From Hyphomicrobium sp. (GTDB lineage Bacteria > Pseudomonadota > Alphaproteobacteria > Rhizobiales > Hyphomicrobiaceae): a DNA stretch of 64,000 bases. Every line of letters starts with the position of its first letter. The stretch's first letter is position 1. Shown in pieces: positions 18,108 to 55,497 of this stretch. The notes under the pieces were generated by a model. That model made no database searches. It saw only the letters and a list, made by a program, of their open reading frames with translations, and was not told where the DNA came from. Where the stretch lies: the NCBI GenBank assembly GCA_025351425.1, contig JANXVY010000097.1, positions 1 through 64,000 on the forward strand. The letters run 5' to 3'. The translations under genes and the position numbers were made by a program.

Positions 18108-18137
18108 GGCCTGATCGTAGGCTCATCCAACCCCGAG

Positions 18138-18168
18138 TGTCAAATAATTTGGACACAATAAATGTCAA
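18138..18168 (-). promoter_or_regulatory. PpsR operator and promoter region of bchG
   Basis: TGTCAAATAATTTGGACA (18138-18155) is a perfect TGT-N12-ACA box. A second TGT at 18163 begins a degenerate copy (TGT-N12-CAA). On the minus strand TTGACA (18168-18163) can serve as -35, with a TATTTG about 16 nt later inside the perfect box. PpsR bound here would block RNA polymerase at bchG. The box lies 31 nt before the bchG start codon. Confidence 0.75.
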
Positions 18169-18539: not shown

Positions 18540-19985
18540 TCAGTTGGAATAGGATCCGAGGTCGCCGAGCCCATGGCGGCGCAGCTTGTCGTAGAGCCCC
18601 TGCCGGCTGAGGCCTAGCATCTCGGCCGCCGACGCCCGGTTGTCGCCGGTCAGCTGCAGCGCAGCCTCGATGCACAGCCGTTCGATCACGTCCGTCGTTT
18701 CGCGAACGATCTCCTTGAGCGGTGCCCGTCCGACCAGTTCCCTCATCTGCGTGACCGAGCGCGGGAATTCGTTCGTCGCGTTTTGGGCGACCGACACGCG
18801 GCCGGCAATGTTGTGAACGATGAAGCCGAGGCACGGCGGATCGCCGTCGGGCACCGCGACGCCTGAAATCTCGACATCCATCTGCGTCCCGAACTCGCCC
18901 CGCATCGAAGTGGCGAACAAGCGGACCGACCCGTGCTCATTGACGTTGGCGATCAGCACCTTGAAGTCGACGCCCGGCCGACCGAGGAAGCGGTCGAGAA
19001 GTTCGCCCCGCGCCTGTTCTTCGGTCGCCAGTTCCGCGAACTCGAGAAACGTCTGGTTTGCGGTCAAGATGCGACCGTCGAGACTGGTGACGACAAATCC
19101 CTCGGGTGCCGCTTCCAAGACCTTCAGCAGGTTGGATTTCGCCTTTGGAATGAGCAGGTTACTGGTTTCGACGGGGCTGAAGCGGACGAGGAGATGCGCC
19201 GTCGTGTCCTGGCGGAACAGCGACGCCACCATGTTGACTTCGGTCGTCCCGTCGGCCAGCTTGATGCGAACCGCTTCGGCTTGGCCGAGGTTGCTGGCCT
19301 TGCTGAGCAAGGCTTGTCCTTGTTCGATGCTCTTGTTGGCGAGGCCTTCGATAAACGGCCGCCCCTGCATCCGTTTGCCGGCGTCGCCGAGCAGGGCCGC
19401 CGCGCTCGGATTGATTTCGACGACTTTGAGCGTATCGCGATCGACGATCACGATGGCTTCGGCGGAGCTTTGGAACAGGAAACGGTAGCGCGTTTCGGCG
19501 AGGCGAAAGCGGAGGTATTCCCGCTCCATTGATTGCTGGGCTTCAACGAGACGCTGTTGTGCCGCCGCGATTGTGCGGAGATCCCGGCCCATGGCGACGA
19601 TCTTGCCATCAGCGCTGACGTTGATCGCACGATAACCAATCGGGATCTGCAAGCCGCTCGACGACGTTTGATTGATGTGGCGCCAGCGGGGCTCAAGATT
19701 TGCAGCGGCTTCCTGCAAAACCTCTTTGACTTTGTCGCGGCTGTCGATGGCGACGGTCTCGATCCACGGCTTGCCGACCCATTCCATGATCTCGGGCCCA
19801 TCGAGATCCTGATTGCCGATCGAAACGTCCTTGATCATCCCCTTCTTGTCGATCAAAAGAGCGAGGTCAGACGCCGACGCGATAAGAGCGCCGACGATAG
19901 ATCCATCGATTTTATCGAAGGTTTTATGGGCCGACTTGAATGGCCGCGTGTTGTCTCGCGAGATGACCATGCGTTTGCTGAACAT
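18540..19985 (-). CDS. ppsR: Transcriptional repressor PpsR/CrtJ
   Basis: PpsR represses bch, crt and related genes under oxygen or high light by binding TGT-N12-ACA boxes. The 481-residue protein has an N-terminal domain, a glutamine-rich helix ('TIAAAQQRLVEAQQSMERE'), PAS domains beginning 'YRFLFQSSAEAIVIVDRDTL' and 'VLEAAPEGFVVTSLDGRILT', and a Fis-type helix-turn-helix, 'ASAAEMLGLSRQGLYDKLRR'. The ATG at 19985 has AGGA before it; an upstream in-phase ATG at 20093 overlaps aerR. Only two cysteines are visible, C385 and C438; C438 just before the HTH corresponds to the conserved redox cysteine. The gene follows aerR in the same direction. Confidence 0.93.
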   Translation of the reverse strand: MFSKRMVISRDNTRPFKSAHKTFDKIDGSIVGALIASASDLALLIDKKGMIKDVSIGNQDLDGPEIMEWVGKPWIETVAIDSRDKVKEVLQEAAANLEPRWRHINQTSSSGLQIPIGYRAINVSADGKIVAMGRDLRTIAAAQQRLVEAQQSMEREYLRFRLAETRYRFLFQSSAEAIVIVDRDTLKVVEINPSAAALLGDAGKRMQGRPFIEGLANKSIEQGQALLSKASNLGQAEAVRIKLADGTTEVNMVASLFRQDTTAHLLVRFSPVETSNLLIPKAKSNLLKVLEAAPEGFVVTSLDGRILTANQTFLEFAELATEEQARGELLDRFLGRPGVDFKVLIANVNEHGSVRLFATSMRGEFGTQMDVEISGVAVPDGDPPCLGFIVHNIAGRVSVAQNATNEFPRSVTQMRELVGRAPLKEIVRETTDVIERLCIEAALQLTGDNRASAAEMLGLSRQGLYDKLRRHGLGDLGSYSN

Positions 19986-20019
19986 TATGTCCTGATCGGA
20001 GTGCCGGTCTCCGTTTTCA

Positions 20020-21027
20020 TCAGCGGTTCGTGACCAAGTCAAGTAGTTTCGACGCTCGTGCGACGGCACGGCGGCCGTCCACGGCGCTGGCATCTGCCCC
20101 TAAAGCCTCGGCATGGTCCTGGCGGTCGCCGATCGCTTGGCCGCCGACCATGACGCGAACCGCGCCATTGATCGAGGATCGTTTCACGCGGCCGATGATG
20201 CGGCGAACTTTGTCGAAATGATCTTCGCTGCTGAGCGAGAAGCCTACAATATCGAAATGCCGGGCCTTCACCGCGTCGATTAGATCCTCGCTTTCGATCG
20301 ACGGCGCACTTGTGACCTGCCAGCCCGCCCTGCGGAAGAATTCAGTGACGAGAATGAGGCCAAACGTATGTTGTTCGCCCGGCGCGGGGATCAGCAGCAC
20401 ATTTCGCACTGCTTTGGAGTCTGGAACGACTTCGCGCGACGAGCTGAACGCGGCTCCGAAGCTATGGACGACCTGTTGCAGGTTCGTCAGCCCGATCGTG
20501 ACGGACGTGAAGTCGCACAGATCCTTGGTCCATTGCTCCCCAAGGTGGCGGGCGGCCGGAGCAAGCAGGCCAAGAAACACGTCCGGCAACGGCATGCCTC
20601 GGGCAATGAACCCTTCGACATGAGCACGCAGCGTGCGCACATTTTCGCGGACCGCCATCTCCGCCAGTTCTATGACCTGCTCGTTCGTCGGGGTTGGTAG
20701 GGGTTGCTCTTCGAGTTCGGGGAGGCGACCGCCTCCATAGGCAAGCATTAACCTCGGAATGATCTCGTTTTCGATCGTGCCCTGCAGGCGGGTGCGCAGC
20801 AGCACCGCCTCGTCGGGCCGTTCGTTCCGGTTCGATGCGGACCCGCAATCGATGTTGCGCAAGTCTGCGTCGAATCTGCCTTGTCCCGGAGGCCGCCTTT
20901 TTGACAGCATCCACATTGGGTCCATCCGGTTGGCAGCCGCCTGTACTTGCGACCCCTGGACTTGCCCGCACCGGTCATCTTGGTGCGCCGCCTGCCGCGA
21001 CGCGGCCCCATCTTTTCTGCTTGCCAT
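20020..21027 (-). CDS. aerR: AerR/PpaA cobalamin-binding antirepressor
   Basis: This regulator binds cobalamin and modulates PpsR/CrtJ in response to light. The last ~130 of 335 residues form a B12-binding fold opening 'NVLLIPAPGEQHTFGL'. E218, H220 and G223 reproduce the E-x-H-x-x-G arrangement in which His ligates B12. 'FDIVGFSLSSEDHFDKVRRI' and 'VRVMVGGQAIGDR' follow as expected. The middle region is helical, with 'FLGLLAPAARHLGEQWTKDL' resembling the cap domain of B12 proteins. About the first 70 residues are variable and rich in charged residues. It ends 34 nt before ppsR, as in other PGCs. Symbol ppaA is an equally valid name. Confidence 0.9.
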   Translation of the reverse strand: MASRKDGAASRQAAHQDDRCGQVQGSQVQAAANRMDPMWMLSKRRPPGQGRFDADLRNIDCGSASNRNERPDEAVLLRTRLQGTIENEIIPRLMLAYGGGRLPELEEQPLPTPTNEQVIELAEMAVRENVRTLRAHVEGFIARGMPLPDVFLGLLAPAARHLGEQWTKDLCDFTSVTIGLTNLQQVVHSFGAAFSSSREVVPDSKAVRNVLLIPAPGEQHTFGLILVTEFFRRAGWQVTSAPSIESEDLIDAVKARHFDIVGFSLSSEDHFDKVRRIIGRVKRSSINGAVRVMVGGQAIGDRQDHAEALGADASAVDGRRAVARASKLLDLVTNR

Positions 21028-21233
21028 TTGAGGCTCCCCGATACCGGCAGTCTATGCTGCCGTTAGATGTTCGTATCCACACTTTGAAACATCAGTTCGA
21101 ATGTCGCTTCCATATCGCTCGGGACAATACATCCATACGAGCAATCCAGGTCGCGGGCAGCATAGTGCAGCGAAGTTAAGCATGGGCCGACGATCAAAGC
21201 CAATAACAATAATCTCTCGCTGCCGATAAAAAA

Positions 21234-21290
21234 TGTAAAGAGAAAAATACGTCAAGATAACTTGACACACTCCGGCAAGTGGTTCTAAGT
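21234..21290 (+). promoter_or_regulatory. bchF promoter with two overlapping PpsR-like boxes
   Basis: TGT-N12-ACG lies at 21234-21251 and CGT-N12-ACA at 21250-21267; they share two bases. The second contains the perfect palindrome GTCAAG-ATAA-CTTGAC (21251-21266). TTGACA (21262-21267) is a good -35, and TCTAAG (21285-21290) after 17 bp is a plausible -10. The -35 therefore supplies the ACA half-site. The start codon of bchF is 69 nt further on. The rest of this 332-bp gap toward aerR shows no other clear motif. Confidence 0.7.
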
Positions 21291-34330: not shown

Positions 34331-35395
34331 ATGAGCACCCAGGCAATCGAACACGATATGATTGACCCTACTGCGACGGCCCAAAAAGAAACACTGCTGT
34401 CGCCGCGGTTCTATACGACCGACTTCGAAGCGATGGACAAAATTGATATCGCGCCGGTACGGGCGGATTGGGATAAGCTGATCGCGGAACTCCGCAATGA
34501 TCCCAATCGCGGACATTTCAAGCGATCGGCCGATTGGGAAAGCCGTATCAATGAGCTCCCGCCTGGTCTGCGCGAGGAGTTCATGGACTTTCTCGTGTCC
34601 TCCTTGACCGCCGAATTCTCGGGTTGCGTGCTGTATGCTGAAACCAAGAAACGCATCACGAACAAGGACGTGCGAGACCTGTTCACGTTCATGAGCCGGG
34701 ATGAGGCCCGCCATGCCGGATTCATCAACGAAGCGCTCAAGGATTTTGGAATCGGCGTCGATCTCGGCTTCCTGACGAAGGCCAAGAAGTACACCTACTT
34801 CCAGCCCAAATTCATTTTCTACGCGACCTATCTTTCGGAAAAGATCGGTTATGCGCGCTATATCACGATTTATCGGCACCTGGAGCGCCATCCGGAAAAC
34901 CAGTTCCATCCGATTTTTTCCTGGTTCGAGGAATGGTGCAACGATGAGTTCCGTCATGGCGAGGCTTTCGCCCTGCTGATGCGCGCCAATCCAAAGCTGT
35001 TGTCTGGCCGCAACAAACTGTGGATCAAATTCTTCCTGCTTGCCGTGTTCGCGACGATGTTCGTCCGCGACCACATGCGGCCGGAATTCCATAAGGCCCT
35101 CGGCGTCGATATCGAGGATTACGACTTCAAGGTCTTCCGGCTGACCACTGAAATCTCCAAGCAGACGTTCCCGCTGACGCTCGATCTCGATCACCCGGCA
35201 TTCCTGAAGGGCTTGCGGACACTGCTTTGGGTGACCAATAAGTCGCGGGAAGCCAAGGCGCGCGGCGGCGTCATGGGTAAGCTCGGTGAGTGGGGGTACA
35301 ACCTGGTGGGCGCTGCGACCTTTGCCAGGCTCTACCTGCTGCCGAGCCGCACCAACGAGATGCCGAGCGATATCCGCCTCGCGCCCGTTTGGTAA
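34331..35395 (+). CDS. acsF: Mg-protoporphyrin IX monomethyl ester oxidative cyclase AcsF
   Basis: AcsF is the oxygen-dependent di-iron cyclase that forms ring E, yielding divinyl protochlorophyllide. The di-iron ligand motifs are visible in '[20 protein letters not shown]' and '[20 protein letters not shown]' (E-x-x-H pairs), with earlier ligands in '[19 protein letters not shown]'. The protein has 354 residues. GGAGG at 34319 fits the ATG at 34331 better than that at 34325. It is the only ring-E cyclase gene here; the anaerobic cyclase BchE is not in this window. That implies some bacteriochlorophyll synthesis in the presence of oxygen. Confidence 0.96.
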
Positions 35396-35403
35396 CGCCG
35401 CCG

Positions 35404-36243
35404 ATGGACCCGTTCGGCTACCCCATCCTGTTTGCGTTGTTCTTCTGGTGGTTTTCGACCGGAGCGATCATCTATCTCGATGGTCTGCCCCGCTCGACCT
35501 TCCGCTGGAGCATGCTCGGTGCGACCGGTGTCGGAGCGCTCGCCCTGTGGGGCATCTGGTGGAGTAGCGATCGTTCCAGCGTCGAATACGTCTATTGCAG
35601 CTTCTCCTGCGCCCTGTTGCTGTGGGCCTGGAATGAGATGGCGTTCCTGATGGGCTTCCTGACCGGTCCGCGCAAGGTGGCCTGCCCGCCCGGCCTCTCG
35701 CTTCGCAGCCGCTTCGAACTGTCGGTGCTGACCCTGGCTCATCACGAAGCGGCGTTGTTGGTGACCGGGGGCCTCATCCTGGTCCTCACGGGGGATGGAC
35801 CGAACTGGATCGGTGCGGCGACGTTCCTGTTGTTGTGGGGCATGCGTCTGTCCACCAAGCTCAATATCTTTCTTGGTGTGCCCAACACCGCCGAGGAGGT
35901 GCTGCCACCCCATCTTCATTTCCTGAAGTCGTATTTCCAAGTCCGTCCGATGAACCTGCTGTTTCCCGTCTCGGTGACGGCCGGAACGGTGGTCAGTGCG
36001 TGGCTGATCGGCCGCGCGATCGCCCCCGGCGCAACGTCGGCTGAGGCGACGGGTGAGACGTTGCTGGCGGCGCTCGCCGTGCTCGGCGTGGTCGAACACT
36101 GGTTCCTGGTGGTGCCGTTGCCGTCTCTTGCGCTCTGGGGCTGGGGATTGGCATCGCACGCCCAATCGCACGCCCAATCGCACGCCCAGACGGCGCGCGA
36201 GGTTGAAGTGCCGCCGGTCATCAGCAAGGCGCGCGCGCCCTGA
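35404..36243 (+). CDS. puhE: Photosynthetic complex assembly protein PuhE (DUF3623)
   Basis: PuhE is a polytopic membrane protein associated with reaction-centre assembly and bacteriochlorophyll supply. The 279-residue protein opens 'GYPILFALFFWWFSTGAIIY' and has 'ALLLWAWNEMAFLMGFLTGP', 'RFELSVLTLAHHEAALLVTG' and 'RLSTKLNIFLGVPNTAEEVL', all characteristic of the family. The ATG at 35404 follows acsF by 8 nt. A 12-bp unit is repeated three times near the 3' end (36154-36189), adding an S-H-A-Q triplicate to the tail. It is the last gene of the long rightward operon. Confidence 0.9.
   Translation: MDPFGYPILFALFFWWFSTGAIIYLDGLPRSTFRWSMLGATGVGALALWGIWWSSDRSSVEYVYCSFSCALLLWAWNEMAFLMGFLTGPRKVACPPGLSLRSRFELSVLTLAHHEAALLVTGGLILVLTGDGPNWIGAATFLLLWGMRLSTKLNIFLGVPNTAEEVLPPHLHFLKSYFQVRPMNLLFPVSVTAGTVVSAWLIGRAIAPGATSAEATGETLLAALAVLGVVEHWFLVVPLPSLALWGWGLASHAQSHAQSHAQTAREVEVPPVISKARAP
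36154..36189 (+). repeat. In-frame 12-bp triplicate in puhE
   Basis: TCGCACGCCCAA occurs at 36154-36165 and 36166-36177, and as TCGCACGCCCAG at 36178-36189. It encodes three consecutive S-H-A-Q units in the hydrophilic C-terminal tail after the last hydrophobic span, which suggests slippage in an unconstrained region. Confidence 0.9.
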
Positions 36244-40429: not shown

Positions 40430-41518
40430 TCAGCCGGGTTTGGTGCGCGGAATGGTTGGCCAAAGCGCGCGCGGATTGCGGAATGGCAGCAGTCCCCGGA
40501 TGATGGGATGGGAAAAGCGATCGAGGCACAAGCTCTCATGCATCCCAACCGTTGTCTCCCCCAGAACGCGAGCCGCCAGCGTCGAGCGCGAATAAAACGG
40601 CGTATCTTCCAGCGTTCGCAAAACAACGGCGTCTTGCGCATGGTCCGCACGGGTTCGCCGCGGCATACGCCAGATCGCAGTGCAGGCCAGCGGAGCAGCT
40701 GGCAGCGTCGGGATCTCTGTCACGCCGCCGGTGCGGTCGGCTTCAATTCCAAGCGCGCACGTTGTGCCGTCCCGCCGCTGGACATCGTAGAACACGGCTG
40801 AGCGGCCGTTGAGGCGCGCATGCGACCAGTTCCAGCTTTTGAAATCCTGCTCAAGCGGAGCCGCACCCGCGTTGGCATCGACGTAGCCATGTCCCGACCA
40901 GCTGAGCGCAGGATGCGACATGGTAACTTCGACTTTGGCGCGCGGGGCGACGGGCCACCACACATGCCGGCCGGCGGCATCGAGGTTGAATGAGCGCGTT
41001 GTCTCGATCAGCGGGTGAATGACGATCCGGCCTCTGAGCGGGGTGGGAAACGGCGCTGTGGTCTCGTTGACATCGATCACGATTCGGGTGCCGTCGAACG
41101 CAACGCAGCTGGTCCCGATTGCGAGTTCCGACCGCGACCGCAAAACCGATCCACGGCCGCGTTCCGTCATCGCCCAGCGATGCCCTCCTTGGCCGTACAG
41201 GGCGACATTGAGGGCGCAGTGATTGAGCGGGTCCCTCCGGCCCGACCACGCATAATAGGGCGAGAAGACGCTGCCCAGCAGCGCGATCATCGTCAGCCCA
41301 TGGCGACCGTCGCTGCTCAGGGCGTCGAAGTACCACCAACGGTAGCCACCGGCTGGAACCGGCGCATCGAATGCAGGTCCGAGAGTATGGCTGCTGCCGC
41401 ATGTCTCCCCGAGATCGCCGCCATCGGTAGGCCGGGGCCAGGGTGTGTGCTGCCGCCGGCCAGATAGAGGTTGGGAATCCTGGAGCGCGAGCCCGGACGC
41501 TGGAACGAGGCCATCCAT
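40430..41518 (-). CDS. crtC: Carotenoid 1,2-hydratase (hydroxyneurosporene synthase) CrtC
   Basis: CrtC hydrates the terminal double bond of neurosporene or lycopene, the first step to methoxylated acyclic carotenoids. Family signatures are 'PAGGYRWWYFDALSSDG', 'LGSVFSPYYAWSGRRDPLNH' and 'LDAAGRHVWWPVAPRA', with 'FKSWNWSHARL' later. The start is uncertain. The ATG at 41518 gives 362 residues and a 202-nt overlap with crtD. No ATG, GTG or TTG lies in phase between it and the conserved 'GGYRWW' region (residues 57-62). The next ATG (41290) would cut into the conserved core. The product call is firm; the N-terminus is not. Confidence 0.85.
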   Translation of the reverse strand: MDGLVPASGLALQDSQPLSGRRQHTPWPRPTDGGDLGETCGSSHTLGPAFDAPVPAGGYRWWYFDALSSDGRHGLTMIALLGSVFSPYYAWSGRRDPLNHCALNVALYGQGGHRWAMTERGRGSVLRSRSELAIGTSCVAFDGTRIVIDVNETTAPFPTPLRGRIVIHPLIETTRSFNLDAAGRHVWWPVAPRAKVEVTMSHPALSWSGHGYVDANAGAAPLEQDFKSWNWSHARLNGRSAVFYDVQRRDGTTCALGIEADRTGGVTEIPTLPAAPLACTAIWRMPRRTRADHAQDAVVLRTLEDTPFYSRSTLAARVLGETTVGMHESLCLDRFSHPIIRGLLPFRNPRALWPTIPRTKPG

Positions 41519-42891
41519 CCGTGAGAAGCCTGCCCATAAAGGGCGCCGCCGGTCGCTGGAAAGAGCCGGTGAAAATCCGCGGGCGCCGTCAACGCGGTCC
41601 GTTCGGGCAGACGCCGGATCTGCAATCCGCAGCGCCTCAGGCCCTCGAACGTCCTCTCCTCGCATTTGGCGATCTCCTCGTGTGACAATGGCGAACTATC
41701 GGCATGGGCTGGCGCGTTCACCAGCACGAACAGGCGTTGCTCGCGGGGGGCGGACGGCGTGTGACCTGTCGCGCCGGGGTCTTGTTCGGCGGCCAGGCCC
41801 TGGTCTTGCGCGCACACATAAACCGTGGGGTCTGACGGCAGTTTGCGCTCGTTGAAAATCTGGTGGAATTCGGCGGCGTAGTTGCGCCCGAAGAACACGT
41901 TGTGGCGGGCCAGAGGAAAACCGTCCGCAGACGCCAGCAGGCTCCATGTCAGCGCAGACATGGACCTCTGGCTGGGAGCAACCGACGGCGTTGCACTGGC
42001 GGCTTGCGCACCGAACAAACCGCCGGCCAATGCGGCGGCGTCGGCGTTGACAACGATCGCGTCGGCCGAAAGGTGTTCGCCGTCCGCGAGGATCAGCCCT
42101 GTTGCCCGGCCGCGCTGGACGACAATCTCCTTGACGCCCCCATTGCAGATGATCTTGACGCCGCGCGCCTCCGCCAGCGAGGCGAGTGCCTCGGCCAGCC
42201 GCTGCATTCCGCCCTCCACGCCCCACACGCCCTGCTGTTCCACGTGGGAGATCAGCATCAAGGTCGCCGGCGATTGATAGGGGGACGAACCGCAATAGGT
42301 CGCATATCTCCCGAACAGCTGGCGCAGTCGCGGGTCTTGGAATTGCCGCGCGAGCTGGCGCCAGAGGCTGGCATGGGGCTCAATCTTCAGCAGCGTGGGC
42401 AGTTGGGCGAGGCGGGTATTGTAGATCATCCCCGCAACCGTGGGGCGCGCGGCGCGAATGAACGGCGTTTCGAGCGCCTGATAGACATCGCGCGCCGTGG
42501 CATGAAAGTCCCGGTAGCGCTGGGCTTCGGCGCGGTTTGCAAACCGGCCGATGGCGTCGATGGTCGCATCGAGATCGGCATAGAGATCGAGTCGCTCGTG
42601 AGAAGACCAGGCATGACGGGCCAGGATGCGCAACGGATGAAGCCGCAGATGCGCTTCGAGCGAAGTACCCGCTGCCGCAAAAATTTCGTCGAACACCCAC
42701 TTCATAGTCAGCACGGTCGGGCCAGAATCTATGCGCGCAGACCCGACCTCGATTTCGCGCATCTTGCCGCCGGGGCGGGGGCCACGCTCGTAAATCGAGA
42801 CGTCCAGGCCTTGGCCCGATAGCTCCAGCGCTGCCACGAGACCTGCGACACCCGCTCCGACAATCGCCACCTTACGGGCACACACGTTCAC
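41317..42891 (-). CDS. crtD: Carotenoid 3,4-desaturase CrtD
   Basis: CrtD is an FAD-dependent desaturase of the phytoene-desaturase family that adds the C3,4 double bond after CrtC. The nucleotide-binding motif 'KVAIVGAGVAGLVAALELSG' starts at about residue 7, followed by 'VSIYERGPRPGGKMREIEVG'. The C-terminal FAD motif is 'IPNLYLAGGSTHPGPGLPMA'. The GTG at 42891 has AAAAGG five nt upstream and places the Rossmann motif at the usual distance; GTG 42885 is an alternative. The longer frame (to 43077) crosses the divergent promoter and is rejected. The protein has 524 residues. Confidence 0.92.
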   Translation of the reverse strand: MNVCARKVAIVGAGVAGLVAALELSGQGLDVSIYERGPRPGGKMREIEVGSARIDSGPTVLTMKWVFDEIFAAAGTSLEAHLRLHPLRILARHAWSSHERLDLYADLDATIDAIGRFANRAEAQRYRDFHATARDVYQALETPFIRAARPTVAGMIYNTRLAQLPTLLKIEPHASLWRQLARQFQDPRLRQLFGRYATYCGSSPYQSPATLMLISHVEQQGVWGVEGGMQRLAEALASLAEARGVKIICNGGVKEIVVQRGRATGLILADGEHLSADAIVVNADAAALAGGLFGAQAASATPSVAPSQRSMSALTWSLLASADGFPLARHNVFFGRNYAAEFHQIFNERKLPSDPTVYVCAQDQGLAAEQDPGATGHTPSAPREQRLFVLVNAPAHADSSPLSHEEIAKCEERTFEGLRRCGLQIRRLPERTALTAPADFHRLFPATGGALYGQASHGWMASFQRPGSRSRIPNLYLAGGSTHPGPGLPMAAISGRHAAAAILSDLHSMRRFQPVATVGGTSTP

Positions 42892-42916: not shown

Positions 42917-42960
42917 TGTAAATATAACTGGACGAAAGAGGTTGTCCAACAAAAGATACA
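42917..42960. promoter_or_regulatory. Divergent crtD/crtF control region with two PpsR boxes
   Basis: TGT-N12-ACG lies at 42917-42934 (one mismatch) and the perfect box TGTCCAACAAAAGATACA at 42943-42960, separated by 8 bp. For leftward crtD, TTGGAC (42949-42944) and TATATT (42926-42921) are 17 bp apart and make a good sigma-70 promoter. One box covers each element. Rightward, CTGGAC (42928-42933) could be the crtF -35, but no strong -10 follows. Confidence 0.78.
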
Positions 42961-43023: not shown

Positions 43024-44157
43024 ATGTTGCAACAGCTCGCCCGGTGGCGGTCTCTGAAAGACCGCATTATCCGTCATCCCTCATTCCATCGGGCGATGAT
43101 GCGGATGCCGTTCACACGGCCACTGGCAAACAGATATGCGCAATCGCTGTTCGATATTTGCGCGGGTTTTGTTTATTCGCAGGTGCTTTCTGCTGCGGTG
43201 CACTTAAACCTGTTCGAGCGATTGGCGGTCCAGCCGATGACGGCCGCGCAACTGGCTCCAGCCGTATCGCTCCCTGTCGAGTCTGTCCAAGCTCTGCTGG
43301 GTGCCTGCGTGTCGTTGCGCTTGCTTGAGCACCGCCCGGGTGGCGCGTTCGGCATCGCAACATTAGGCGCTGCCATCCTGGCCAATCCTATTGTTCCAGC
43401 GATGGTCCGTCACCACGCGTTGCTTTATGCCGATCTCGCCGATCCGGTCGGCCTGCTGAAGAACGGGCACCAAGGCACGCGGCAGGCGGAATTCTGGGCA
43501 TATGCCACGTCTGCGTCTCCCTCTGATTTGCAGGCATCGCAAGTCGAGGACTACTCGCGTCTCATGGCGCAGTCGCAGGAGTCCATCGCCGGCGAGATCC
43601 TCGACGCCTATCCTTTGTCCCGCCATCGCTGCCTGCTCGATGTCGGCGCCGGCGAGGGCGTGTTTATGGCAAACGCATTGGCGCGCACGCCCGGCTTGTC
43701 CGGCATCGCCTTCGATCTTCCAGCCGTCACCGGACGGGCGCAAGAAAAGCTCGTTGGCGCAGGGTTCGCAGCGCGCGTGCGTATGGAGGGCGGGGACTTC
43801 TTTTCCGATGATTTGCCGCTTGGCGCCGATATCGTTTCCCTCGTCAGGGTCGCTTTCGATCACGACGACGCGCGCGTCATGGCGCTGCTCAAATCCGTGC
43901 GGAAAGCATTGCCGCCGGGCGGCACCATTCTGATCGCCGAGCCGATGGCTGAAAACGCGGCGCGCAATCGGGTGCAGAGCGCCTATTTCGCCTTCTATTT
44001 GATGGCGATGGGCCACGGAAAACCACGCACGCCGCAGCACTTTTTTGCAATGCTGAACGAAGCGGGTTTCAGCAGCTGCCGGTCGATCCGCGTCAACAAC
44101 GCGCTGATGACGAGCCTCGTTCTCGCAACAGCGAACCCGTCCCAGGCAAAAGTGTAA
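43024..44157 (+). CDS. crtF: Hydroxyneurosporene O-methyltransferase CrtF
   Basis: CrtF methylates the 1-hydroxy group made by CrtC, using SAM, giving methoxy carotenoids. The N-terminal dimerisation domain is followed by the O-methyltransferase fold with 'RCLLDVGAGEGVFMANALAR' (motif I) and 'GADIVSLVRVAFDHDD'. 'LPPGGTILIAEPMAENAARN' is the motif V/VI region, with the active-site 'HFFAMLNEAGFSS' after it. The protein has 377 residues. The gene begins the rightward crtF-bchCXYZ-puf run, divergent from crtD. Its stop codon lies inside the first PpsR box of bchC. Confidence 0.92.
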   Translation: MLQQLARWRSLKDRIIRHPSFHRAMMRMPFTRPLANRYAQSLFDICAGFVYSQVLSAAVHLNLFERLAVQPMTAAQLAPAVSLPVESVQALLGACVSLRLLEHRPGGAFGIATLGAAILANPIVPAMVRHHALLYADLADPVGLLKNGHQGTRQAEFWAYATSASPSDLQASQVEDYSRLMAQSQESIAGEILDAYPLSRHRCLLDVGAGEGVFMANALARTPGLSGIAFDLPAVTGRAQEKLVGAGFAARVRMEGGDFFSDDLPLGADIVSLVRVAFDHDDARVMALLKSVRKALPPGGTILIAEPMAENAARNRVQSAYFAFYLMAMGHGKPRTPQHFFAMLNEAGFSSCRSIRVNNALMTSLVLATANPSQAKV

Positions 44158-44196
44158 AATAATATTGACACTTTAGAATGTCAGACTATTCTTACA
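44153..44196 (+). promoter_or_regulatory. bchC promoter with two perfect PpsR boxes
   Basis: TGTAAAATAATATTGACA (44153-44170) and TGTCAGACTATTCTTACA (44179-44196) both fit TGT-N12-ACA and are 8 bp apart. TTGACA (44165-44170) is a consensus -35 and TATTCT (44187-44192), 16 bp later, a good -10. One box therefore covers each promoter element. The first box includes the crtF stop codon. Confidence 0.88.
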
Positions 44197-44241
44197 ACTA
44201 GAGGCTCCGCTTTCTTGCAGGGTCCTAGTGGAGCGCGATAC

Positions 44242-45216
44242 GTGCCAGCCCCCCAGATGAAAGCCACGGCGATCGTTCTGCAAGAGCCCGGCGCCATTGC
44301 GCTCAAAGAGCTCGAACTCACCGCCCCCGGCGATACTGATGTGGTCGTAGACGTGCAATGGAGCGGCGTCAGCTCGGGTACCGAGCGGCTTTTGTGGTCG
44401 GGAAAGATGCCCTTTTTTCCAGGCCTCGGTTACCCCCTGGTGCCCGGCTACGAATCCGCGGGCGCGGTCGTGATGGCTGGCAGCCGGTCGGGCCTCAATG
44501 CTGGAGACTTCGTCTTCGTGCCCGGCGCCAGTTGCTACAAAAGTGTCAAGGGATTGTTCGGTGCCAGCGCCTCGCGGATCGTCGCCGCAGGCTCGCGCGC
44601 GATACGGATCGATCAACGTCTCGGCGAAGATGCGACCCTGCTCGCACTCGCCGCGACCGCCCATCGCGCGGTCGCAGGCGGCGCACCCCGGTCCGATGGC
44701 ACGCCCTCGTTCCCCGAACTGATCGTTGGTCATGGTGTGTTGGGCCGTCTGGCCGCGCGGGTCGTCGTGGCCCTCGGCGGCGCTGCGCCCACCGTCTGGG
44801 AAACCTCGCCGATGCGGCAAGACGCGGGTTCCAGCTATCGCGTGATCGACCCTTCACTCGAGACCCGCCGGGATTATCGCACGATCTGCGACGTCAGCGG
44901 CGATGCAACGATCCTCGACCGCTTGATCGGGTGCCTCGCGCCCGGCGGCGAAATCGTGCTCGCAGGTTTCTACAGCGAGCCGATGTCCTTTACCTTTCCA
45001 CCCGCCTTCATGCGCGAGGCGCGGTTCCGGATCTCGGCCGAATTCAAGCCTGACAACATCTCCGCCATTTGTGCGCTGATTGCTGGCGGAAAACTCAGCC
45101 TCGCCGGCTTGATCTCGCATCGCGCCGCTGCAGCCGATGCAGCGAGCGCCTACCGGACGGCCTTCACCGATACGTCATGCCTGAAAATGGTTCTGGATTG
45201 GAGACACCTATCATGA
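44242..45216 (+). CDS. bchC: 3-hydroxyethyl bacteriochlorophyllide a dehydrogenase BchC
   Basis: BchC oxidises the 3-hydroxyethyl group to the 3-acetyl group of bacteriochlorophyllide a. It belongs to the medium-chain dehydrogenase family: 'VQWSGVSSGTERLLWSGKMP' and 'YPLVPGYESAGAVVMAGSRS' form the catalytic domain, and 'LIVGHGVLGRLAARVVVALG' the nucleotide-binding domain. The GTG at 44242 has GGAG eight nt before it (324 residues). The ATG at 44257, 'MKATAIVLQEPGAI', is the usual family start and may also be used. The stop overlaps bchX. Confidence 0.94.
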   Translation: MPAPQMKATAIVLQEPGAIALKELELTAPGDTDVVVDVQWSGVSSGTERLLWSGKMPFFPGLGYPLVPGYESAGAVVMAGSRSGLNAGDFVFVPGASCYKSVKGLFGASASRIVAAGSRAIRIDQRLGEDATLLALAATAHRAVAGGAPRSDGTPSFPELIVGHGVLGRLAARVVVALGGAAPTVWETSPMRQDAGSSYRVIDPSLETRRDYRTICDVSGDATILDRLIGCLAPGGEIVLAGFYSEPMSFTFPPAFMREARFRISAEFKPDNISAICALIAGGKLSLAGLISHRAAAADAASAYRTAFTDTSCLKMVLDWRHLS

Positions 45217-49413: not shown

Positions 49414-49671
49414 ATGACACCTTATGCTGACGCGTCTGTTCAAAGCAGATTACACGAACGCCGGAAGATCAAGGTCGAATACGCCGTGATTTTCGGCAGC
49501 ATGTTCGTGATTTTCCTCGCCCTTGCGCTTGCCAAGCGAGTCCTGCCTGCGAATTGGCTCTCGTCGTCGGATTATTCGGGCTGGCATGATGATCGCGCCG
49601 GACGGAAATCGGTCATTGCCGAAGCCGTGAACGAGGCTTCGGTCCACGCTCCATTTGCCTTCATGGGGTGA
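49414..49671 (+). CDS. pufQ: PufQ, bacteriochlorophyll-related membrane protein
   Basis: PufQ is a small bitopic membrane protein that stimulates bacteriochlorophyll formation before its incorporation into complexes. The 85-residue product has a basic N-terminus ('RLHERRKIKVEYAVIFGSMF'), one membrane helix and a hydrophilic tail ending 'SVHAPFAFMG'. The order and features match Rhodobacter PufQ, although identity is modest. GGGAG precedes the ATG at 49414; an in-phase start at 49372 is less likely. Position between bchZ and pufB is the classical one. Confidence 0.82.
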   Translation: MTPYADASVQSRLHERRKIKVEYAVIFGSMFVIFLALALAKRVLPANWLSSSDYSGWHDDRAGRKSVIAEAVNEASVHAPFAFMG

Positions 49672-54191: not shown

Positions 54192-55427
54192 TTATTCAGC
54201 TGCAAGCCGCGCGTTGGGCGCCAACTGAGACACGGGGCATTCGGCCCATAGCTCGCCGAGCGCAGCGAGCAGCTTGTCCATGTCGGCATCGGAGTGCAGC
54301 GGCGTCGGAGTAAGCCGCAGCCGTTCAGTCCCTCGTTGCACCGTGGGGTAGTTGATCGGCTGCACGTAGATGCGGTGACGGGTCAGCAGCGCGTCGGTCA
54401 CGCTCTTGCAGCGAACCGGATCGCCGATGAAGACGGGCGCGATATGGCTCGGATTCTCCATGACGGGCAGTCCGGCTTCAGTCAGGCGGCGCTTGAGGGT
54501 GCGGGCGCGTTCCTGGTGGCGGGCGCGTTCGAGCTGGCTGTGTTTCAGATGCCGTACGCTGGCGAGCGCCCCCGCCGCAATGGCCGGCGCCAGCGAGGTC
54601 GTGAAAATGAAGCCCGGCGCGAACGAGCGGATGGCGTCGCAGCAGGCCCGGCTGGCGGCCACATATCCACCCATCACGCCGTAACCCTTCGCGAGGGTTC
54701 CGTTGATGATGTGGATGCGATGCATCTGATTGGCGCGTTCCGCGATGCCGCCACCGCGTGGTCCATAAAGGCCGACGGCGTGCACCTCGTCGATATACGT
54801 CATTGCGCCGAACTCGTCCGCCAGGTCGCAGATTTTCTCGACCGGAGAAATATGACCGTCCATCGAGTAGACGCTCTCGAAAGCAATCAGAATGGGCGTA
54901 CCCCGGGGCACCGCCTCGAGCTTGGCCCGCAAATCGCCGACGTCGTTGTGCTTGAAGATTATTTTGCGGCCGCCGCCGTGTTTGATGCCTTCGATCATCG
55001 AGGCATGGTTCTTTTCGTCCGACACGATCACGAGGCCTGGGATAAGCTTCACCAGCGTCGATAGAGTGGCGTCGTTGGCGACATACGCCGATGTAAACAG
55101 CAGCGCCGATTCCTTGCCGTGGAGATCTGCGAGTTCGCTCTCCAGTTCGACATGAAAATGAGACGTTCCAGAAATATTGCGCGTACCCCCCGACCCCGCG
55201 CCGACCTTGTCGATAGCATCGTGCATGGCCGCCAGCACGTCGGGATGCTGACCCATGCCGAGGTAGTCGTTCGAGCACCAAACGGTGACGGGCACGCTTT
55301 CGCCGGAGCGGTGTTGCGTCGCCTGCGGAAACCGTCCTGCCCGCCGCTCAAGATCAGCGAAGACGCGGTATCGGCCTTCGTTACGAAGCTCCTGGAGGCG
55401 CGTCTCGAAAGCGGCTTCGTAGAACAT
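54192..55427 (-). CDS. hemA: 5-aminolevulinate synthase HemA (C4 pathway)
   Basis: HemA condenses glycine and succinyl-CoA, the first step of tetrapyrrole synthesis in Alphaproteobacteria. The 411-residue PLP enzyme has '[20 protein letters not shown]', '[20 protein letters not shown]' and '[19 protein letters not shown]', with cofactor Asp 213. The PLP lysine is K247 in '[16 protein letters not shown]'. GGAGG precedes the ATG at 55427. Two perfect PpsR boxes cover its promoter. A second ALA synthase gene may exist elsewhere, as in Rhodobacter, but is not in the window. Confidence 0.97.
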
Positions 55428-55453: not shown

Positions 55454-55497
55454 TGTAAATTTACAGAGACAATGTAAAGTGTCAAATAATATTTACA
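55454..55497 (-). promoter_or_regulatory. hemA promoter with two perfect PpsR boxes
   Basis: TGTAAATTTACAGAGACA (55454-55471) and TGTCAAATAATATTTACA (55480-55497) both fit TGT-N12-ACA and are 8 bp apart. On the minus strand TTGACA (55485-55480) and TAAATT (55463-55458) with 16-bp spacing form a good sigma-70 promoter. One box overlaps each element. The 153-bp stretch on the other side, toward the DUF2177 gene, shows no clear motif. Confidence 0.88.

Follow-up and report, generated by a model that had tools for sequence, protein, structure and literature searches.

Paired PpsR-type boxes over the bchC, crtD and hemA promoters of a Hyphomicrobium photosynthesis gene cluster, with an apparently late gain at hemA

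The window analysed here, i.e. the whole 64,000-nucleotide stretch of contig JANXVY010000097.1 from Hyphomicrobium sp., carries a photosynthesis gene cluster, in which family searches identify crtD, bchC, bchX, bchY, hemA, ppsR, bchG and bchP, together with puf L, M and C. A bchFNBHLM-lhaA-puhABC-acsF-puhE run occupies approximately 21.4-36.2 kb on the + strand; within it bchH, lhaA and puhC are named from position, acsF by a rubrerythrin-type domain plus position, and puhE by a DUF3623 match plus position. The genome encodes a PpsR protein with a Fis-type helix-turn-helix (HTH), presumed to be the binding protein for the boxes described below, whose Cys474 lies within the HTH region and whose PAS region aligns with the solved structures of R. 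sphaeroides PpsR. Adjoining ppsR is a gene for a B12-binding AerR/PpaA-like protein, the presumed antirepressor (Table 1).

Three pairs of TGT-N12-ACA boxes lie before bchC (44153/44179), crtD (42917/42943) and hemA (55454/55480), each with its boxes 26 bp apart start to start, i.e. with an 8-bp gap. Re-reading of the window sequence bears out both the positions and the 26-bp phasing given in a preliminary description of this DNA, and likewise its count of five perfect boxes in six: both boxes are perfect at bchC and at hemA, and the crtD pair has one mismatch, in the 42917 box, which ends in ACG. The promoter hexamers, matched by consensus, are TTGACA-N16-TATTCT at bchC (+), TTGACA-N16-TAAATT at hemA (-) and TGGACA-N16-TATATT at crtD (-). 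They fall inside the boxes at all three sites, with one box on the -35 and the other on the -10, and with the -35 supplying a half-site, as had been claimed; the gap is in each case within the 7-9 bp of a tandem operator. Two other elements of the preliminary description need correction. The three promoters are not unlinked, since a single photosynthesis gene cluster contains them all in a span of 12.6 kb, and the promoter labelled crtD/crtF reads as a leftward, crtD promoter, whereas the crtF direction is without a -10 and a promoter toward crtF was dropped on that ground. The crtF-like gene ends within the upper bchC box, where its stop codon (TAA, 44155-44157) shares positions with the left half-site.

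Table 1. Box pairs, promoter hexamers and genes referred to in the text (window coordinates unless a contig is given).
Feature	Position	Strand	Remarks
bchC pair TGTAAAATAATATTGACA-CTTTAGAA-TGTCAGACTATTCTTACA	44153-44196	+	
bchC upper PpsR-type box TGTAAAATAATATTGACA	44153-44170	+	right half-site within -35
bchC -35 TTGACA	44165-44170	+	from sequence
bchC lower box TGTCAGACTATTCTTACA	44179-44196	+	starts 8 bp past upper box
bchC -10 TATTCT	44187-44192	+	16-bp spacer from -35
hemA pair TGTAAATATTATTTGACA-CTTTACAT-TGTCTCTGTAAATTTACA	55497-55454	-	
hemA upper box TGTAAATATTATTTGACA	55480-55497	-	contains -35 TTGACA 55480-55485
hemA lower box TGTCTCTGTAAATTTACA	55454-55471	-	contains -10 TAAATT 55458-55463
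crtD pair TGTATCTTTTGTTGGACA-ACCTCTTT-CGTCCAGTTATATTTACA	42960-42917	-	
crtD upper box TGTATCTTTTGTTGGACA	42943-42960	-	contains -35 TGGACA 42943-42948
crtD lower box CGTCCAGTTATATTTACA	42917-42934	-	one mismatch; contains -10 TATATT 42921-42926
bchC	44215-45216	+	TIGR01202, 410 bits; true start probably near 44242-44257
crtD	41317-42891	-	NF045637, 688 bits; GTG start at 42891 placed from the family model's start
crtF-like methyltransferase ORF	43024-44157	+	divergent from crtD; BchU/CrtF model 45 bits, weak, below cut-off
hemA, photosynthesis-cluster 5-aminolevulinate synthase copy	54192-55427	-	TIGR01821, 650 bits
second (housekeeping) hemA copy	G000:C81:6835-8028		without pair
ppsR, presumed binding protein	18540-20093	-	TIGR02040, 488 bits; PAS domains; Fis-type HTH 470-506 (PF02954)
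B12-binding AerR/PpaA-like protein, presumed antirepressor	20020-21027	-	adjoins ppsR; PF02310

AT-rich promoters with TTGACA and TA-rich -10 hexamers might give TGT/ACA pairs accidentally, the ACA coming from TTGACA itself, and single TGTN12ACA boxes are no commoner in the genome than their control (345 compared with 337 for the reversed pattern), so that single-box counts carry no signal. The paired pattern behaves otherwise. A scan of the organism's own genome (3.54 Mb) with TGTN12ACA-N8-TGTN12ACA, using the reversed pattern as control, finds two perfect pairs, those of bchC and hemA, where 0.034 are expected by chance, and one pair with a single mismatch, that of crtD, all three in the window; at two mismatches the 25 occurrences, compared with 15 for the control, are at about background. 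Only four perfect pairs with any gap of 0-30 bp exist genome-wide, two with gap 8 (bchC and hemA), one with gap 2 and one with gap 21, the last two on contigs other than that of the window, and, with up to one mismatch over the same range of gaps, the window holds the three pairs and one chance pair at gap 26. In simulations of the intergenic regions with local composition (20,000 each), the frequency of N8 pairs of equal quality was 0 for bchC, 0 for hemA and 5e-5 for crt, and a matrix trained on the bchC pairs of other genomes ranks bchC (50.3), hemA (48.9) and crtD (29.3) as the top three positions in the window. The genome-wide search for 8-bp pairs proposed in the preliminary description, in which equal frequency elsewhere was to count against its claim, places them at 0-1 mismatches solely before photosynthesis/pigment genes, and the tandem pair is rare elsewhere in the genome. 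The counts and simulations led us to reject a chance origin, which is extremely improbable, and which is already refuted for bchC, where the pair is conserved across 23 families.

Conservation at bchC was assessed in 73 genomes of the order that have the gene, the window's own among them, by scanning approximately 350 bp upstream. When at most one mismatch is allowed, gap 8 is represented by 51 pairs and any other gap by no more than 4. Under a looser rule (at most three mismatches, with TTGAC required where the upper box ends) a pair is present in 72 of the 73 genomes and in 23 of the 24 families; TTGACx at the -35 position in 72/73 is here a selection criterion and not an independent result. 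TAnnnT in the -10 register, on which there was no selection, occurs in 65/72, as against 8/72 on the reverse strand, taken as control. A second set of 80 bchC loci, collected by protein similarity from named genomes that are mostly alpha-, beta- and gammaproteobacterial and include a few of the same order, gives 48 pairs at gap 8 and at most 2 for each other gap. Unlike most other loci of this second set, those of its purple sulfur bacteria of the Chromatiaceae (L236, L246, L248, L271, L281, L282, L305 and L306) have no PpsR-type pair, their best candidates having 3-4 mismatches, and the Rhodocyclus bchC loci L241 and L250 have no good pair either. Nearly all the relatives examined in the order thus have the predicted 8-bp double operator before bchC, and it is widespread in alpha-, beta- and gammaproteobacteria.

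Arrangements of this type have been characterised in other phototrophs. Work on Rhodobacter capsulatus describes CrtJ footprints on bchC at -47/-30 and -21/-4, over the -35 and -10, with in vivo ChIP-exo data (PMC5362033), and cooperative binding to the bchC sites 8 bp apart, credited to Ponnampalam 1998 (PMC6199135). As in the window, that promoter has two TGT-N12-ACA palindromes separated by 8 bp, the upper on the -35 and the lower on the -10; the window organism differs in having further copies at crtD and hemA. Tandem PpsR sites of Rubrivivax gelatinosus, 8 bp apart at crtI and 9 bp apart at pucB, have been footprinted, with the pucB footprint extending over the -35 and -10; the palindromes are in tandem as here, but the genes differ (PMC4452267). 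In the gammaproteobacterium Congregibacter litoralis 12 of 15 PpsR sites, all of them predictions, are tandem and 7 or 8 nt apart, and the same work describes several species in which neighbouring palindromes cover promoters of sigma70 type (PMC2654016). ChIP-seq with R. sphaeroides PpsR found bchC (bchCXYZ) and crtEF/crtCD bound, with motifs containing TTGACA (PMC4344238); its targets include hemE, not hemA (PMC4344238, Table 2), whereas the heme gene with a pair is hemA here.

The sequences themselves show how the boxes are arranged, their excess over chance, their overlap with promoter-like hexamers, their deep conservation at bchC and the crt locus and their lineage-specific presence at hemA. 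PpsR binding, cooperativity and oxygen repression in the present organism are what we infer from these studied relatives, and we consider it very probable that the three sites are PpsR/CrtJ double operators on sigma70 promoters, jointly shut off in oxygen, with relief by AerR or redox change. The upper TGT-N12-ACA palindrome would use the -35 hexamer for its right half-site and the lower one, 8 bp further on, would cover the -10. The adjacent boxes would be bound by a pair of PpsR dimers, probably joined in a tetramer, and the bound protein would occlude RNA polymerase under oxygen or oxidising conditions. PpsR is in dimer-tetramer equilibrium (PMC3949515). Repression would thereby switch off bchC, crtD and hemA (its photosynthesis copy) together, until redox change or the B12-binding, AerR-like product of the gene adjoining ppsR relieved it. 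The preliminary proposal of PpsR-type double operators over the -35 and -10 agrees, at the level of sequence, with the presence of ppsR and the aerR-like gene in the same cluster and with a genome scan that hits pigment genes only. Points against are that at crtD one half-site is imperfect and the -35 (TGGACA) is weaker, that hemA is missing from the ChIP-seq targets of R. sphaeroides PpsR (PMC4344238), and that redox-dependent PpsR binding in Rubrivivax was seen only at the 9-bp spacing and not at 8 bp (PMC4452267), so that an 8-bp gap does not ensure control by oxygen. The paired arrangement is genuine and lies well outside chance, and what it chiefly means was known before; little is new, namely the addition of hemA, the likely late and repeated origin of its pair, and the keeping of the spacing even at the crt locus.

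With respect to why the spacing persists, bchC, where it is locked to the promoter, can be compared with the crt locus, where it mostly is not. The crt locus, which in most relatives lies approximately 2.2 kb before bchC and was taken as the crtEF/crtCD intergenic region, contains within the order 31 pairs with gap 8 and 8 pairs with gap 7; on this comparative evidence both the bchC and the crt pairs are old and conserved. The 8-bp gap could in principle arise from the promoter alone, each box being pinned to a hexamer such that a fixed 16-bp spacer forces the gap without protein-protein contact, a proposal that agrees with the bchC half-sites coinciding with TTGACA and abutting TAnnnT in 65/72 genomes, and with the same hexamer coincidence at all three window sites. 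The crt locus nevertheless keeps gap 8, less often 7, although TAnnnT is in register on either strand in just 7 of 29 gap-8 pairs there (an indirect comparison, in which genuine -10 hexamers may be degenerate), and cooperative binding and an effect of spacing, 8 versus 9 bp, have been published. The maintenance of the gap mostly without promoter locking favours a protein-protein constraint and weakens the promoter-only explanation, which we regard as unlikely.

The geometry implied by the sequence differs from the binding to one helix face that had been claimed. With 10.5 bp per turn, a dyad distance of 26 bp amounts to 2.48 turns, or approximately 171 degrees, which would put the two dimers on opposite faces, with alignment limited to the half-sites, i.e. 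the inner ones, which at 11 bp apart are on the same face, and the outer ones, which at 41 bp apart are nearly so. Bending of the DNA could alter this picture.

The sole unusual point of an otherwise textbook pairing is that hemA has acquired it too. Most relatives in the order have hemA behind puhE, at the end of a bchF-puh operon that is split here. The cluster hemA directly follows puhE in 41 of 51 genomes of the order, as judged by protein matches within 500 bp upstream of it; gene layout shows the adjacency in several further genomes. In the window puhE (35290-36243, +) is apart from hemA, which is divergent from a DUF2177 gene, a split suggestive of rearrangement in this lineage; so placed, hemA would need a promoter of its own, which the pair would represent. 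No pair was found at the housekeeping hemA of the same genome (G000), and at the cluster hemA just two of 51 copies have one (contigs ending close to hemA, e.g. those of G088 and G376, cover its upstream region only partly). These are G000 itself and G052, the only genome with the puhE-hemA arrangement to have a pair, which sits in the puhE-hemA gap. With the bchC and crt pairs old and 49 of 51 cluster hemA copies without one, the single evolutionary design for three promoters put forward earlier is not supported.

The hemA pairs of G000 and G052 are similar, both reading TTGACACTTTA-ATTGTC with linkers identical at 7 of 8 positions, and TTGACACTTTA is common to the hemA and bchC pairs of G000; an ancestral hemA promoter common to both, or copying of the bchC promoter, might account for this in place of independent origin. 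The linker letters are themselves biased, however, and the similarity is thus weak evidence, while the cluster hemA lies behind puhE without a pair in nearly all relatives. Moreover, a tree of linked cluster proteins groups G000 with G329 (support 0.98) and G052 with G146 (0.96), and neither these two partners nor G001 and G316 have a pair at hemA. Shared descent or copying is accordingly an explanation that we consider possible but doubtful. Two gains at hemA would be simpler than one gain followed by several losses, and the pair at hemA seems to have been gained late and in particular lineages rather than to be ancestral. In G029, G072, G134 and G182, which belong to one other genus, a weaker 8-bp pair (TGTCAGG.TGCGTTGACA-N8-TGTCATAAAAAATTGACG) lies approximately 200 bp before the single hemA; this is possibly a third, independent gain. 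Independent origin leads to a broader proposal, for and against which we see about equal chances, that the bchC-type operator is a ready-made design that was acquired de novo at least twice, perhaps three times, before hemA, and that in the present organism hemA, having parted from the puhE-hemA operon, regained co-regulation by this means. In hemA we may see a way in which a gene can leave an operon and stay under the same control.

Other boxes in the window depart from the paired arrangement. Upstream of bchG (18112-18155, -) a TTGACA -35 forms part of one perfect box, TGTCCAAATTATTTGACA, whose partner at the 8-bp spacing is poor, with two mismatches and a low matrix score. Between the aerR-like gene and bchF (21224-21267) a one-mismatch box, CGTCAAGATAACTTGACA, is accompanied by an overlapping TGT-N12-ACG, which is not the 8-bp geometry, and a lone perfect TGT-N12-ACA is located at 49437-49454, between bchZ and the puf genes.
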